This document shows, piece by piece, positions 27,042-39,152 of a DNA stretch of 51,259 nucleotides. The notes under the pieces are model-generated. The model ran no database searches. It was not told the DNA's origin and saw only the letters and a program-made list of their open reading frames with translations. Position 1 is the first letter of the stretch. Every line of letters begins with the position of its first letter. The stretch spans positions 1 to 51,259 of the forward strand of contig CACZRR010000005.1 of the NCBI GenBank assembly GCA_902783595.1, written 5' to 3'. The position numbers and the translations under genes are program-made. Source of the DNA: an uncultured Bacteroidota bacterium (GTDB lineage Bacteria; Bacteroidota; Bacteroidia; Bacteroidales; P3).

Positions 27042-29813
27042 ATGAAAACACTTAAAAAAGGTTTCTTTTTGCTGATGACTGCCATGATGGTGGCATCTTT
27101 CGCTAATGCGCAGAGCATCGCAAAAAAGGCTGACGACCTCTTCGATCAGTACCGCTATGTTGAGGCATGTAAGGAGTACGAGAAGGCCTACAATAAGATC
27201 AAGAACAACAAGGCTGAAAAGAACCGTATCTATTTCCAGATGGCCGAGTGCTATCGTTTGACATACAATTACCCCATGGCCAAGGTTATTTACAAGCGAT
27301 TGGTTAATGAGGAGTACTACAATAGTGAACGCAAGCTCTATTTTAATCTGGCCGAGATGTGCCGTTTTCAAGAGGAGTTTGAGGAAGCAGAGATCTATTA
27401 TGACAAATATCTGGAGCTGGAGCCCGACGATACCCATGCCATCAAGCGAAAGAAATCGCTTATCCATCATGCTGAGATGGGTCAACACCGCACGCGTCAT
27501 GAGGTGACGCAGATGGACGACTGGAATAGTGATTTTAACGATTTCGCCCCCCGTTTCCTGGGCAATGATACCACGAAGGTTCTATTCACTTCGTCGCGCT
27601 TTGCCGAAGGTGAGGGCGAGAACAGAGATCCTTGGACAGACCAGGCTTTTTCAGATATTTATTTCGTCTTCATGGACCGCAATGGGCAGTGGAATTCTAC
27701 TCCAGAACCATGGGATAAGAGTGGAAAAATCAATACTGCCGTCAACGAGGGCGAACCATCGTTCACCCCTGATGGTAACATGGTATTCTTCACACGTTGC
27801 GACATTCGAGAGAACACCACGTCACTCTGCCGTATCTATTCGTCAACGCGCACTCCCGAAACACTCGACAAGAAGGGTAAGAAAGGCACCGCCAAGAAGA
27901 AAACTCTGAAAAAAACAACAAAAAAGAAGGGTAAGAAAGGTAAGGATATCGATGACGAACAGCCTGCCGAGATGGAGCAGCCTACAGAGCTGAAGGCAGG
28001 TGAATGGTCGGAGCCCGTCTATGTACATCTGGGTGACACCGCCTATAGTTATCTCTATCCCGCCATTACCTCCGATGGCCTCACCCTCTATTTCACCTCC
28101 GATATGCCTGGTGGCTTCGGCGAATATGATATCTGGCGTGCCACACGTAAGTCCACCGCCGACGATTTCGGCCGACCCGTTAACCTCACCTCGGTTGTCA
28201 ATACTCCTGGCAAGGAGATGATGCCTGTTTTGCGCAACGATTCACTGCTCTATTTCTCGTCAGATGGTCTCCCTGGTGTGGGTGGTCAGGATCTCTTCAG
28301 CACAAAACTTAGCCCCAACGGGCGCTGGTCGGTGCCGCAGCACCTGGGCGTACCCATCAACTCGTCGTACGATGAGCTGTCCATCGTCTTCTATCCGGAC
28401 AATGAGATGAGCAATATTGTGGAGCGCGGTTTCTTCTCATCCAATCGCCCCTACAACGAGCCTCACAATGATGCTAACCGTAACGAGAACCGCAGCACCA
28501 AGCGTAAAGGTCCGTTACCCATCAATGATAATATTTTCTATTTTGAGCTGCAAGGTCTGAATTATGCCATTCAGGGCACTGTGCGTGACGAGAAATCGAT
28601 GCAGCTCATCAAGGACGCACGCCTTAAAATCGTTGGCTCTGATGGTATGGAGGCCGAGACGCGTACCGACAAGAAGGGCTTCTACAAGTTCGATAGTACG
28701 CTGATACGCCGCGATGTGGTGTACAAGATGTATCTCTCCAAGTCGGGGTATTACAGTACTGAGGGTTCAGAAAGTACACGTGGCTATACCACCAACAAGA
28801 CCCTGGTGCATGACTTCCGCATGGAGCCCGTCCCGCGTCGTCCCATTGTGCTGCCACAGATACAATTCGATCTGGCAAAAGCGGATCTGAAGGCAGATTT
28901 CATGGATTCGTTAATGGATCTTTACCTCATTATGGATAACAATCCTAACCTTGTGGTGGAGATACGCTCACATACCGACTGTCAGCCCTATGTGGGTCTC
29001 ACCAACGATACCCTCTCGCAGCGCCGCGCACAGAGTGTGGTGGACTATCTGGTGAGCCGCGGTATCGAACGCGACCGTTTGGTGGCCAAGGGCTATGCCG
29101 AACGTGTACCTCGGGTATTGGATGAGGATATGGTTGTTGAGTACAATGGCCAGAAATATGAGTTCTCGGCAGGATCCGTCATGGATTGCGACTATATCGC
29201 CACCCTCAGCGGTGACAGGCAACAGGCGGCACACTCCCTCAATCGTCGTATCGAGTTCCTGGTGCTGCGCGAAGATTATGTGCCGCGCAGATTGGTGGAA
29301 AATATGACGGCTCCCCAACCGGTGGCAAAGGTCGACGAAAACGGTAAGGTGGTCGACCTCGTCAACCGCGACGTCAACGACGATATCGAGGAGACACAGC
29401 CCACCATCGTACATGACGAGAGCGTGGTGCCGGTGGTGATGATTAATGCCACACGCGGCGAGATGAGCTGTATCGCCAACGGTTTCCAGATTCCCATGCT
29501 TATCGACGAGCGCTATGCTGAGCCTATAGCCATCTCTTGGGAGGAAGCTATGAATCTCCTATACCAGCAACGTATCACCAAGGAGGACTTCCCCCTGCGC
29601 GACCAGTCTTTCGATGCCGAGGGCAATATCGTCGACCGCACAACACTTGTGTTCAAAAACATGCAGATTGGTGAACAACGCCGCGAGAAGGTCGAGGTGA
29701 TAGTCGTCAAGGGTATAGACTACAAGTTTATCATCAACCGCACCGGCCTGCTGCAATTCGGCAAGTACGAATTCGACAAGCAGCGGTCTCGCCTCATCTT
29801 CTTGGATGAATAA
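27042..29813 (+). CDS. PorE-like T9SS envelope protein (TPR, beta-propeller, CRD, OmpA) with C-terminal protease-like domain
   Basis: The 923-residue protein has a signal peptide (1-24), TPR repeats (about 25-155), PD40-type beta-propeller strands (about 170-500), a carboxypeptidase-regulatory-like domain (about 506-585) and an OmpA peptidoglycan-binding domain (about 603-743, with IRSHTDCQ and SQRRAQSVVDYL). That order is the architecture of PorE, a T9SS component anchored in the periplasm. Two additions stand out. A lysine-rich insert (about 276-301) lies inside the propeller region. An extra domain (about 796-923) resembles clan AA (retropepsin-like) proteases, but the catalytic DTG is replaced by D822-E-R824. 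The start is ATG 27042, since the longer frame would spoil the signal peptide. It overlaps miaA by eight bases. Confidence 0.85.
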   Translation: MKTLKKGFFLLMTAMMVASFANAQSIAKKADDLFDQYRYVEACKEYEKAYNKIKNNKAEKNRIYFQMAECYRLTYNYPMAKVIYKRLVNEEYYNSERKLYFNLAEMCRFQEEFEEAEIYYDKYLELEPDDTHAIKRKKSLIHHAEMGQHRTRHEVTQMDDWNSDFNDFAPRFLGNDTTKVLFTSSRFAEGEGENRDPWTDQAFSDIYFVFMDRNGQWNSTPEPWDKSGKINTAVNEGEPSFTPDGNMVFFTRCDIRENTTSLCRIYSSTRTPETLDKKGKKGTAKKKTLKKTTKKKGKKGKDIDDEQPAEMEQPTELKAGEWSEPVYVHLGDTAYSYLYPAITSDGLTLYFTSDMPGGFGEYDIWRATRKSTADDFGRPVNLTSVVNTPGKEMMPVLRNDSLLYFSSDGLPGVGGQDLFSTKLSPNGRWSVPQHLGVPINSSYDELSIVFYPDNEMSNIVERGFFSSNRPYNEPHNDANRNENRSTKRKGPLPINDNIFYFELQGLNYAIQGTVRDEKSMQLIKDARLKIVGSDGMEAETRTDKKGFYKFDSTLIRRDVVYKMYLSKSGYYSTEGSESTRGYTTNKTLVHDFRMEPVPRRPIVLPQIQFDLAKADLKADFMDSLMDLYLIMDNNPNLVVEIRSHTDCQPYVGLTNDTLSQRRAQSVVDYLVSRGIERDRLVAKGYAERVPRVLDEDMVVEYNGQKYEFSAGSVMDCDYIATLSGDRQQAAHSLNRRIEFLVLREDYVPRRLVENMTAPQPVAKVDENGKVVDLVNRDVNDDIEETQPTIVHDESVVPVVMINATRGEMSCIANGFQIPMLIDERYAEPIAISWEEAMNLLYQQRITKEDFPLRDQSFDAEGNIVDRTTLVFKNMQIGEQRREKVEVIVVKGIDYKFIINRTGLLQFGKYEFDKQRSRLIFLDE

Positions 29814-35780: not shown

Positions 35781-38700
35781 ATGAAAAAAACCGTCCTGAA
35801 AACAATTTTCTTTTTGCTGTCGCTCTCAGTCGTAGGGCGCGCTGCAGCTCAATCCCTCATCGACTATACGCTCGTTTACGATAACAGCACCTTCCAGACC
35901 ATCGTCGGCACCGACGGCGCCCAAAAACTCGACGCCGTCTCGGGCGACAATTCCTTCGACTACACCACGCTACCCTTCTCATTCCCCTTCGGCGAAGCAC
36001 GTATAGAAGTCGGCACGCGCGTGAATATCAGCTCCAACGGCTACCTCTTCTTTGGATCGGTAAACCCTGGCGACTATGTGGCATCTGTGTGGGGCAACAG
36101 CGGCCTCTCCTACCGCATCATTGCACCTGCGGTGCTGGGTGACGGCTATTGTACTACCACGGCCGAAAACCAAGGCGCCTGGTACACCTACACCGAGGAC
36201 GCCGCAGGCGATAGCACTTTGGTCTTCGAAGTGAGAGGGGTGAGCCCCTATCAGGTCCGCGACAATAGCGAGTACCTCAACTACCAAATCTGGCTCTATC
36301 CTTCCGGCACCATTGTCATCCACTTCGACGAGTCGCTCTTCACCCACACCTCCAATATCAACACCATGCTCGCCAATGGCTATGGCGACAAGGCTTGTCT
36401 CACAGGCAGTTGGAGCGAGCCTACCCTGGGACAGCCCTCCTCCATCCCCTCCATGAGCACCGCTCCTGCCGCCGGCAGCCGCTACGTATACAGCCGTCCC
36501 GAAGGGTTCTGCAACAAACCCCAGAACCTCCTGGCCGACCAGCCCACAGCCAGCTCCATACATCTCTCCTGGAGCGGCGAGGCGGTCGACTACACCCTCT
36601 ACTGGGCTCCCTCTGGTAGCGATTGGTCCGACAGCATCACCACCGACGGCGCCACCGAATACACGGTGTATGATCTCAACAGCAGCAGCTCCTATACCTT
36701 CGCTGTGCGTAGCCTCTGCGAGGACGGCCAGCAAAGTAACCTCTCTGCCTCCGTCACCCTCTTCACCTCTTGCGCCCCGCTGACCAGCGACTACCTGCCC
36801 TTCCGTGAGACTTTCGAAGGTATGGCGACATCGGACTGGAACCCCTGCTGGACGCGTTGGTACAAGGACGACAGCGGAAATCTCTCTTCGGGCTATTCAC
36901 CGTATAGCAGTTACATCATTCCCACCACCTCCGATGGCACTTCGGGTACCAACTCACTGCGCCTGCAAGTCACTCCCTACCACTCCGCCTCCATAGACCA
37001 CAAGTGGTGTATCATAGCTATGCCACAGGTCGAGGCCGATTTCTCCGACATCACCCTCTCCTTCAGCAAGAAGTTCTCCAAAGACAGCAACAACGTGCTC
37101 ATCATGGGATTCATGTGCGATCCCACCGACACAGCCACTTTCGTCCCCTTTGACACCATACCCGCCAACAACACCGTATGGGACACCGCCACCATCTCTC
37201 TTGCCGACTACAACGGCGTGGGCACCTATCCGGCACTCCTTTTCTATACCAGCACCTCCAGCGGGTGGGACACCTACTACGCCTACATCGACGATGTGAC
37301 CCTTACCGGCAGCGACATCTGCTCCCAGCCGCAAGGTATCACCATCGGCGAGGTGACGTCGACCTATGCCAGCCTCACCATCGTCGACGACAATCCGGCT
37401 TCCTACGAGGTGAGCATCTGGCACGAGGACTCCGACACTACCACCACAACACAATCCTCCCTCGATCTCTTCTTCAACCTCCTGCAGCCCGCCACACACT
37501 ATCATGTCGAGGTGGTGAAAATTTGCTCCAATGGCACCCGCGCTTTCTCCATCTCGTCCCAGTTCCTCACTCCCTGCGAACCCTTCAGCCATGTCGACCT
37601 GCCCCTGCAGGAAAACTTCGACAGCTACCCCTCCTGCCAGGGCGGCTTCGTCAACCCCTGCTGGACAATCCATAATTACAACAACAACGGCACCTACCCC
37701 TATCCCACATCCTACACCCGTCATGGCTCCACTGGCAATAGCTTGATGTTCTATGCCAGCACGACCCAGGAAAACCAGGTGGTGGCAATGCCTGTTGTCG
37801 ACTATCTCAACGACCTCACTCTCCGATTCTACTCCTACACCACCAGCGCTTACAACCGCCTCGAGGTAGGCTACATGACCGACCCCTCCGACACGGCTAC
37901 TTTCGTCCTCTTGCGTACCATCCAACCGACAGAGGATGAGACATCGCAGTGGATCCTCAACGAGATCGACCTCGCCGAGGTCCAAGGCGACAATATCGCC
38001 CTCGCTTTCCGCCATACCCACACCTCCAGCGCTACAGGTTACAGCTACTGCATCGACGACCTCGAGCTTGTTCTCACACCCTCTTGCCACCAACCCGATT
38101 CTCTCTCTTTCTACGACATCACTCCCACCTCTTTCACTCTCACCATCCACGACTCCTCCGCCGTCAACCACTACGTGGTATCCATAGGCGACGAGGAGGT
38201 GATTGTACGCGACTTCAACGAGGTGACAATCGATGACCGCACGCCCGGCACTACCTACAACATCCTCGTGGTGGCCGTATGCGAGAGCGGCGACACGACA
38301 CAGGCTGTCAGCACCTCTGTCACGCTACCCTGCATGGCTGTGGCGGAGGAACAGCTGCCTTGGAACGAGAATTTCGATACGTGGGCCACAGGTAACTACG
38401 CTCCTTTCCCAAGTTGCTGGCAACGCTACTATGGACGTACCGGCAACTGGAGTGAGTATACGGAGTCGCGCGTGAAAGCCACCGACTTGAATGGCCGTCG
38501 TATGCTCTACATGTATGGCGCCGGTGGCTATTCCAATGCCTATCAAGATGCCTATGTCGTGCTGCCCGAATTTGATGTCGAGCTGGCACGTCTCGAAATC
38601 ACTGCGGTGCTCCACTTCCAATCCTCTGTCTCCGACAGCAACGATTTCTTCCAGATTGGCGTGATGGCGTCGGCCGACCAGCCCGACACCTTCGAGCCGC

Positions 38701-39152
38701 TCTATACGCACAACAATGATGGCAGCCAGGGCTTCGACACCGTCGTCGCTCGCCTCAACCATACCACCCTCGAACACGGTGTCGTCGCCGTACGCTATGC
38801 ATACCGTGTCTCCGGCGACTACTACTACGCCTACATCGACTCCATTGCTGCGCGCATCAATGATGAACCCGAACCGGAGCCCGAACCCGTGGCTATCGAT
38901 TCGCCTGAGAGCAGCCTCGACGCTGTTGTCATCGCTCCCAACCCCGCCACTACCACAGCAACCATCAGCGGCATCCAGCACGCCTGCCAGATTGCGGTCA
39001 TCGACCAGAACGGACGCTCCATGATGACTATGCAGCACGACGCGTCGGCATCCCCCCTCAGCATCAATGTCTCCACGTTGCCTAAGGGTATTTATTATGT
39101 GCGTATATCCTCGTCCTCGGCAGCAGTCACACGCAAACTTATCGTCCGATAA
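35781..39152 (+). CDS. Large T9SS-secreted adhesin-like protein with three fibronectin III / adhesin-type modules
   Basis: The 1123-residue protein has a signal peptide (1-24) and an N-terminal beta domain (about 25-240). Three repeats follow, each a fibronectin III-like unit plus a 'choice-of-anchor'/MAM-like unit. The FN3 units start near 243 (CNKPQNL), 513 (CSQPQG) and 768 (CHQPDS). The partner units start near 331, 599 and 850, with CWTRWY, CWTIHN and CWQRYY and recurring DPTDTATF or DPSDTATF. An EPEPEPEP linker (about 1029) leads to the T9SS C-terminal domain (about 1049-1123, APNPATTTATISG, LPKGIYYVRI, KLIVR). It probably sits on the cell surface and binds glycan or protein, but the ligand is unknown. 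It is Ser/Thr-rich and more GC-rich than its neighbours. Confidence 0.87.
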   Translation: MKKTVLKTIFFLLSLSVVGRAAAQSLIDYTLVYDNSTFQTIVGTDGAQKLDAVSGDNSFDYTTLPFSFPFGEARIEVGTRVNISSNGYLFFGSVNPGDYVASVWGNSGLSYRIIAPAVLGDGYCTTTAENQGAWYTYTEDAAGDSTLVFEVRGVSPYQVRDNSEYLNYQIWLYPSGTIVIHFDESLFTHTSNINTMLANGYGDKACLTGSWSEPTLGQPSSIPSMSTAPAAGSRYVYSRPEGFCNKPQNLLADQPTASSIHLSWSGEAVDYTLYWAPSGSDWSDSITTDGATEYTVYDLNSSSSYTFAVRSLCEDGQQSNLSASVTLFTSCAPLTSDYLPFRETFEGMATSDWNPCWTRWYKDDSGNLSSGYSPYSSYIIPTTSDGTSGTNSLRLQVTPYHSASIDHKWCIIAMPQVEADFSDITLSFSKKFSKDSNNVLIMGFMCDPTDTATFVPFDTIPANNTVWDTATISLADYNGVGTYPALLFYTSTSSGWDTYYAYIDDVTLTGSDICSQPQGITIGEVTSTYASLTIVDDNPASYEVSIWHEDSDTTTTTQSSLDLFFNLLQPATHYHVEVVKICSNGTRAFSISSQFLTPCEPFSHVDLPLQENFDSYPSCQGGFVNPCWTIHNYNNNGTYPYPTSYTRHGSTGNSLMFYASTTQENQVVAMPVVDYLNDLTLRFYSYTTSAYNRLEVGYMTDPSDTATFVLLRTIQPTEDETSQWILNEIDLAEVQGDNIALAFRHTHTSSATGYSYCIDDLELVLTPSCHQPDSLSFYDITPTSFTLTIHDSSAVNHYVVSIGDEEVIVRDFNEVTIDDRTPGTTYNILVVAVCESGDTTQAVSTSVTLPCMAVAEEQLPWNENFDTWATGNYAPFPSCWQRYYGRTGNWSEYTESRVKATDLNGRRMLYMYGAGGYSNAYQDAYVVLPEFDVELARLEITAVLHFQSSVSDSNDFFQIGVMASADQPDTFEPLYTHNNDGSQGFDTVVARLNHTTLEHGVVAVRYAYRVSGDYYYAYIDSIAARINDEPEPEPEPVAIDSPESSLDAVVIAPNPATTTATISGIQHACQIAVIDQNGRSMMTMQHDASASPLSINVSTLPKGIYYVRISSSSAAVTRKLIVR

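Follow-up and report, generated by a model that had tools for sequence, protein, structure and literature searches.

A PorE-Like Protein of Bacteroidales Carries a C-Terminal Retropepsin-Like Domain without the Catalytic Motif

Results

The PorE-like gene and its domain order

The window, by which we mean the whole analysed stretch of 51,259 nucleotides from an uncultured bacterium of the order Bacteroidales, contains a gene for a PorE-like protein, the features of which are listed in Table 1. The Pfam scan of this protein gave matches to TPR, PD40 propeller repeats, a carboxypeptidase-regulatory-like domain (CarboxypepD_reg), and OmpA, the TPR and CarboxypepD_reg matches being below the Pfam gathering scores. 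The order of TPR, propeller, CRD, and OmpA that is known from PorE was found in the window protein by Pfam, by NCBIfam, and in the full-length model. The best NCBIfam match was PorE (NF052230) with 424.6 bits against a cut-off of 600, followed by CHU_0125 with 300.4 bits against a cut-off of 620. The window protein is PorE-like, yet it stays below the curated NF052230 cut-off; this cut-off is passed by its tail-bearing relatives in the genomes G040, G050, and G119 (612.3, 605.7, and 604.7 bits, respectively).

Table 1. Features of the PorE-like gene and of other parts of the window.
Feature	Position	Strand	Basis or remark
PorE-like gene	27042..29813	+	923 aa; start ATG 27042, stop at 29813
Domain order of the PorE-like protein: signal peptide without lipobox, TPR, beta-propeller, CRD-like, OmpA_C, linker, retropepsin-like tail			
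Lysine-rich low-complexity insert in the propeller, residues 270–318	27849..27995		
OmpA_C-like peptidoglycan-binding domain (predicted), residues 604–742	28851..29267	+	Pfam OmpA 6.3e-10; PDB 6top
Flexible linker, residues 743–792	29268..29417	+	Low pLDDT, low identity, high dN/dS
Retropepsin-like domain without the catalytic motif, residues 793–923	29418..29810	+	Profiles, model, Foldseek, HHalign
D822-E823-R824 in place of the catalytic DTG	29505..29513	+	Alignment to DTGAS relatives
F896-I-I-N899 in place of the psi-loop	29727..29738	+	Gly replaced in the window protein
Gene convergent with miaA	30713..32026	-	23-base overlap with miaA
Protein with an over-threshold T9SS sorting domain	35781..39149		

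The OmpA domain of the P. gingivalis PorE (PDB 6top) matched residues 605–742 of the window protein with an E-value of 2.2e-20. Residues D646, N655, and R662 of the OmpA_C-like domain are invariant in an alignment of 29 rows (A1) and, as mapped by eye, they take the places of Asp576, Asn584, and Arg591, which are given as peptidoglycan contacts of PorE in the accessible part of the source (PMC7192894). The peptidoglycan-contact residues thus appear to be conserved between the two proteins. The P. gingivalis PorE (PG1058/PGN_1296, NF052230) has the same order of TPR, beta-propeller, CRD, and OmpA_C, and it is a lipoprotein, whereas the window protein has a signal peptide without a lipobox and no Cys following it. 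In the same part of that source, PorE is described as ending in the OmpA domain (residues 534–668; PMC7192894), so the linker and the retropepsin-like domain of the window protein are an addition to the known domain order.

In the full-length model, which had a mean pLDDT of 81.6, the tail forms a separate domain and is preceded by a disordered linker at residues 757–792, where the pLDDT falls below 50. The lysine-rich insert in the propeller was mostly disordered in the model as well (residues 277–313), and it is variable among the close relatives (identity of 0.39).

The tail is homologous to bacterial retropepsin-like proteases

The first-pass annotation had recognised the order of retropepsin motifs in the interval 29430–29813, i.e., in residues 797–923 and the stop codon. 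This order proved to be real and above chance, and the domain is better set at residues 793–923. The last 144 residues of the window protein alone gave no family match in the Pfam or NCBIfam scans, and such single-sequence scans are blind to the window's copy of the tail. An alignment (A2) of 78 fused tails consisted of the window and 77 named relatives; these were the 80 named loci without L119 and L139, which have no tail on the contig, and without L136, the frame of which is broken. The tails of A2 were scanned one by one against the family models, with the matches listed to an E-value of 10. The model TIGR02281 ("clan AA aspartic protease") was matched by 46 of the 78 tails with a best E-value of 1.2e-6 (the next family was matched by 2 of 78), PF13975 (gag-asp_proteas) by 43 with a best value of 5.5e-5, and PF13650 (Asp_protease_2) by 18. 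The next unrelated family in the Pfam scan was matched by three tails, and no unrelated family matched more than this number.

When the profile of A2 was compared with the PDB sequences, the best match was the Rickettsia protease ApRick/APRc with an E-value of 0.0013, which points to a modest similarity at the sequence level. The AlphaFold2 model of the tail, built from the 78 fused tails, reached a mean pLDDT of 89.9, and its strands and helices are those of the retropepsin fold. The Foldseek comparison of this model with the PDB found APRc at an E-value of 7.6e-7, and all 34 matches with E ≤ 1e-3 were either Rickettsia APRc or retroviral-protease-like domains of the Ddi1 type. The TM-scores on the query were moderate, 0.41–0.58 over the 34 best matches, with an rmsd of 3.5–7.8.

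The fused tails were also compared by HHalign with 11 relatives that have no PorE core, ten of which carry DTG or DSG; the result was a probability of 99.9 and an E-value of 3.6e-31 over 131 columns. DTGAS is found in the strongest of the core-less matches; two of the core-less relatives, L142 and L143, matched the tail profile at E-values of 5.8e-22 and 2.0e-19 within their own genomes. Both the retropepsin fold in the model and the sequence homology in the profile and profile–profile comparisons place the tail in clan AA, and we conclude that residues 793–923 are a separate domain homologous to the bacterial retropepsin-like (clan AA) proteases.

The catalytic motif and the cleft residues of the fused tails

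In the alignment to the DTGAS relatives, the place of the catalytic DTG is held by D822-E823-R824, just where the first-pass annotation had located it. For the survey of this motif, 125 distinct PorE-fused tails were used, namely 55 rows of the order sample (window included) and 70 named rows, after the rows with identical last 100 residues had been dropped; L142–L145 were checked separately for the PorE core and none was found in them. Neither DTG nor DSG was present in any of the 125 tails aligned to the tail profile. The first position of the triplet is Asp in 85 tails and has lost it in 40, the second is Thr or Ser in three, the third is Gly in eight, and none of the 125 combines Asp, Thr/Ser, and Gly. 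The triplets DER or DEK occur in 43 of the fused tails, including every one of the 32 distinct rows from the window's close relatives. Among the 12 matches without the PorE core, nine have DTG, one DSG, one DTL (L145), and one EEE (L187); the last is cut by the contig end and groups with the fused tails.

As for the survey of PorE homologues proposed in the first-pass annotation, the domain turned out to be widespread (54 of 198 genomes, see below), but a tail with DTG did not come to light. This absence is one of the two outcomes that the first-pass annotation had named as speaking against it, but it does not refute the homology, since the core-less relatives carry DTGAS and match the same profile.

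The Gly of the psi-loop is kept in 58 of the 125 fused tails (one row being gapped) versus 12 of the 12 core-less matches. The window protein has F-I-I-N where the pattern is two hydrophobic residues followed by Gly, LLLG in most of the DTG relatives. The window tail therefore has neither the catalytic D-T/S-G of clan AA, which is replaced by D-E-R, nor the psi-loop of this clan.

The information in single columns was compared between 96 fused rows and 10 DTG rows, with L145, L187, and the named rows L062–L090 left out. The five columns of DTGAS fell from 3.85–4.32 bits in the DTG rows to 1.1–2.2 bits in the fused tails, and the flap Ala859 and the LLG of the psi-loop were also lower in the fused tails. 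Meanwhile, the columns of L840 (4.24 vs. 2.60 bits), F850 (4.03 vs. 2.56), and I863 (3.94 vs. 3.02) were higher in the fused tails than in the DTG rows; as the DTG set of 10 is small and inflates its own values, these gains are conservative and the losses are somewhat overstated. The column values indicate that the constraint in the fused tails has moved off the cleft, the residues of the helix and of the core being kept.

Distribution and origin of the fused tail

The window tail, used as a single query, had matches in 77 of the 198 genomes of the order sample at E ≤ 1. A fused tail, for which we required E ≤ 1e-3 and a frame length of 500 aa or more, is present by a manual reading of the table in 54 of these genomes belonging to 36 families. 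All 54 frames contain the PorE core, and the identity of the relatives' tails to the window tail ranges from 18 to 86%. In a phylum sample of 395 genomes, the tail profile had matches in 21 at E ≤ 0.1, and the only one of these loci with the PorE core was the window's own. Unfused DTG relatives were found in some genomes that also bear fused tails (G003, G073, and G107).

The search of the 198 genomes for PorE listed places down to about 564 bits. Of the 54 tail-bearing genomes, 21 are found among these listed matches, in each case through a tail-bearing protein and never through a tail-less one, and the other 33 have no place among them; weaker PorE-like matches occur in most of the 198 genomes. 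The genome G046 holds a second PorE-like copy, L185, which has a tail, is diverged, and forms a long branch in the core tree.

The core tree was calculated with the tail excluded from 93 rows, 55 with the tail and 38 tail-less, which were picked by hand and are not the full set. In this tree, the tail changes once; the support is 77/92, and a single change was seen in 78% of the bootstrap trees. In the tail tree, which was built by a quick method from few columns with 137 rows thinned to 112, the fused tails make up one side of a branch if L187 is not counted. The core tree needs one gain or loss of the tail, and, as its root is not fixed, a loss of an older tail may also account for it.

A remnant of the tail was considered for the tail-less proteins L219–L226, which continue for 20–103 residues past the core, but no match of the tail profile was found there at E ≤ 1e-3. 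Most of them, as seen by eye, keep an I-x-I-like strand before a low-complexity end, and Ile is found at position 789 in 79 of the 96 fused rows. Being conserved in the fused tails, yet beyond the region in which the DTG relatives align, this strand may belong to PorE itself.

Purifying selection on the tail

The dN/dS values were obtained from the 55 pairs formed by the window sequence and ten of its close relatives, with residues 791–923 taken as the tail. The tail had a mean pairwise identity of 0.81 and a median dN/dS of 0.126, with the synonymous sites near saturation and 54 of the 55 pairs usable. The OmpA domain gave an identity of 0.83 and a dN/dS of 0.137, and the TPR gave a dN/dS of 0.154, while the linker residues 743–790 had an identity of 0.50 and a dN/dS of 0.495. 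The tail is under purifying selection, and no other domain of the PorE-like protein has a dN/dS as low among these close relatives.

Gene neighbourhood

The neighbours were compared at 44 diverse tail-bearing loci, taken from the 50 loci named L091 and higher, each neighbour cluster being named from one scanned member. On the 5' side of porE, secDF was found at 25 and tatA/E at 14 of the 44 loci, and on the 3' side a purM-like gene was found at 24, prfA at 15, and pyrF at 12. The order secDF, tatA/E, porE, purM-like, prfA, pyrF recurs at L127, L137, L123, L125, and other loci, and in many lineages the PorE gene lies beside genes for general export, those of SecDF and TatA/E.

At least one of secDF, the purM-like gene, and prfA is also located near 11 of 16 tail-less PorE genes. 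The purM-like gene is present at nine of the 16, eight of which also have prfA; L244 has prfA and the end of SecDF, and L243 has secDF. None of the three genes was found in the fetched stretches of L236, L237, L238, L241, and L242. With this common neighbourhood, the tail-bearing and a part of the tail-less porE genes look like positional orthologues.

The gene of the window differs, as it lies between clpX on the upstream and miaA on the downstream side; the 33 close relatives (L061–L090, L098, L101, and L111) all have this downstream neighbour. This clpX/miaA context gave no functional clue, and the secDF of the window's genome is located elsewhere, away from the PorE-like gene. The gene convergent with miaA encodes a product in which a T9SS sorting domain scores below the threshold (20.6 bits against a cut-off of 27).

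The type IX secretion system and the membrane anchor

The translocon protein SprA of the type IX secretion system (T9SS) is encoded in the window's genome, in 187 of the 198 genomes of the order, and in all 54 genomes with a fused tail. As SprA is near-universal in the order, its presence shows only that a T9SS exists there. The window itself encodes a protein with an over-threshold T9SS sorting domain (Table 1), and the PorE-like protein would be expected to work in this system. According to the accessible parts of the sources, the P. gingivalis PorE binds PorP and peptidoglycan and has been suggested to bridge the outer membrane and the wall (PMC9143113, PMC7192894), and PorP, which PorE contacts, binds the cargo with type B CTDs (PMC9143113).

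A crude lipobox pattern was found in none of the 80 named relatives, 79 of which gave a signal-like N-terminus. Tail-bearing exceptions with a lipobox are L181, recognised by the pattern, and L176, recognised by eye. The pattern matched 1 of 24 tail-bearing versus 8 of 35 tail-less proteins, and it missed further Cys-bearing N-termini visible by eye, mostly in tail-less proteins. A Cys-bearing signal peptide is, by eye, typical of the clade around the canonical PorE. We also considered the tail as a replacement of the lipid anchor and rejected this as a general rule, because many tail-less PorEs are likewise without a Cys-bearing signal.

Discussion

The profiles, the structure, and the survey support the reading of the tail as a pseudo-retropepsin, fused to a PorE-like protein that has an OmpA domain of the peptidoglycan-binding kind, and the first-pass annotation was right on this point. 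In our best explanation, a periplasmic aspartic protease would have become attached to the C-terminus of PorE in a single event within the Bacteroidales, so that the tail was gained rather than lost. The DTG would then have been lost in the fused lineage, and the domain of about 130 residues would have been retained as a non-catalytic interaction module. Taken as a whole, we consider this explanation probable. The tail would be carried on a flexible tether of about 40 residues behind the peptidoglycan-binding OmpA domain, and its most likely role would be a protein–protein contact in the scaffold that the type IX system has at the outer membrane and peptidoglycan. Such a contact could be the self-association of the tails, an option suggested by the fact that retropepsins are natural dimers, or the docking of the tail to another protein, for instance a PorP-like protein or a protein of the ring. 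The more specific proposal, in which the pseudo-retropepsin connects the peptidoglycan anchor to the PorP/ring assembly, by linking or by dimerisation, or reads the cargo sorting domains there, is tentative, and we would sooner expect it to fail than to hold.

The first-pass annotation had added that the tail is perhaps there for peptide binding. An extended peptide, for example the CTD of a cargo or a stem peptide of peptidoglycan, would then lie in the former cleft. The retropepsin fold has such a cleft, PorE contacts the cargo-binding PorP, and, since DER or DEK is kept in all distinct close relatives of the window (and in 43 of the 125 fused tails overall), the old cleft may be in use there. 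However, the motifs lining the cleft, i.e., the DTGAS loop, the flap Ala859, and the LLG of the psi-loop, are the very part that is relaxed across the family, with the helix and the core kept, and for this reason peptide binding is not favoured and appears unlikely to us.

A tail that is still an aspartic protease, with D822 working among other neighbours, has in its favour the Asp at this column in 85 of the 125 fused tails, and through this Asp some residual chemistry may persist. This is countered by the loss of the Asp in 40 tails, by the lack of any fused tail with Asp, Thr/Ser, and Gly together, and by a psi-loop Gly kept in only 58 of the 125 (one row gapped); in addition, Arg at the place of Gly should not support catalysis in clan AA. 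Judged from these residues, catalysis by the tail is very unlikely, and we give the protease reading little credence.

The lost catalytic motif and the diverse sequence (18–86% identity to the window tail) would also fit a decaying remnant without function. Nevertheless, the tail is not one decayed gene: it persists in 36 families of the order sample, its model has the strands and helices of a retropepsin, and its dN/dS of 0.126 is the lowest of the domains among the close relatives. Unless this constraint arises only from the stability of the whole protein, the evidence against a remnant is strong, and we regard this reading as very unlikely. A chance similarity of an unrelated beta domain, for which the empty Pfam and NCBIfam scans of the single window tail could be cited, is hardly credible, as the profile, profile–profile, and structure comparisons all give retropepsins.

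If the retropepsin tail of PorE is indeed a non-catalytic interaction module, a secretion machine would have taken over a protease fold of the retroviral type and made it a dedicated part without catalysis, as seen in about a quarter of the genomes sampled from the order (54 of 198). Little is understood about the module that anchors the type IX system, which comprises PorE and its partners, and a tail that occurs in only some lineages, lacks DTG in all copies found, and yet is strongly conserved would be a handle on what PorE contacts. It would also be a clear bacterial case of a retropepsin turned into an apparent pseudoenzyme with one apparent origin. Our literature searches, the coverage of which did not extend to most subscription papers or any preprints, gave no description of a retropepsin joined to type IX secretion. 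PorE and the retropepsins themselves are known, and the novelty would lie in a PorE with a pseudo-retropepsin tail.

The best match of the tail in the PDB, both by profile and by fold, is APRc (RC1339) of Rickettsia conorii (PDB 5c9b, 5c9d, and 5c9f). APRc has DTG and, in the accessible part of its description, is an active enzyme accumulating as a dimer (PMC4140852), whereas the tail has no DTG. The secreted retropepsin-like RloA proteins of Pseudomonas have signal peptides and are dimeric and active with DTG, and the accessible part of the source describes no fusion to a part of a secretion system (PMC12239564), in contrast to the DTG-less fused tails. The clan AA proteases of TIGR02281 and PF13975 are the families matched by many of the fused tails. 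In the unfused Bacteroidota relatives L050, L142, L143, and L184, the match to the tail profile covers almost the entire domain; they are short, carry DTGAS and LL(L/V)GQ, and look by eye like lipoproteins, while the fused tails are without DTG. These four are likely relatives of the tail's ancestor. Two long core-less proteins, L059, in which TPR-like repeats can be seen by eye, and L188, have a retropepsin domain at their end in which DTGAS is intact, and they seemingly represent a parallel fusion that kept the motif.
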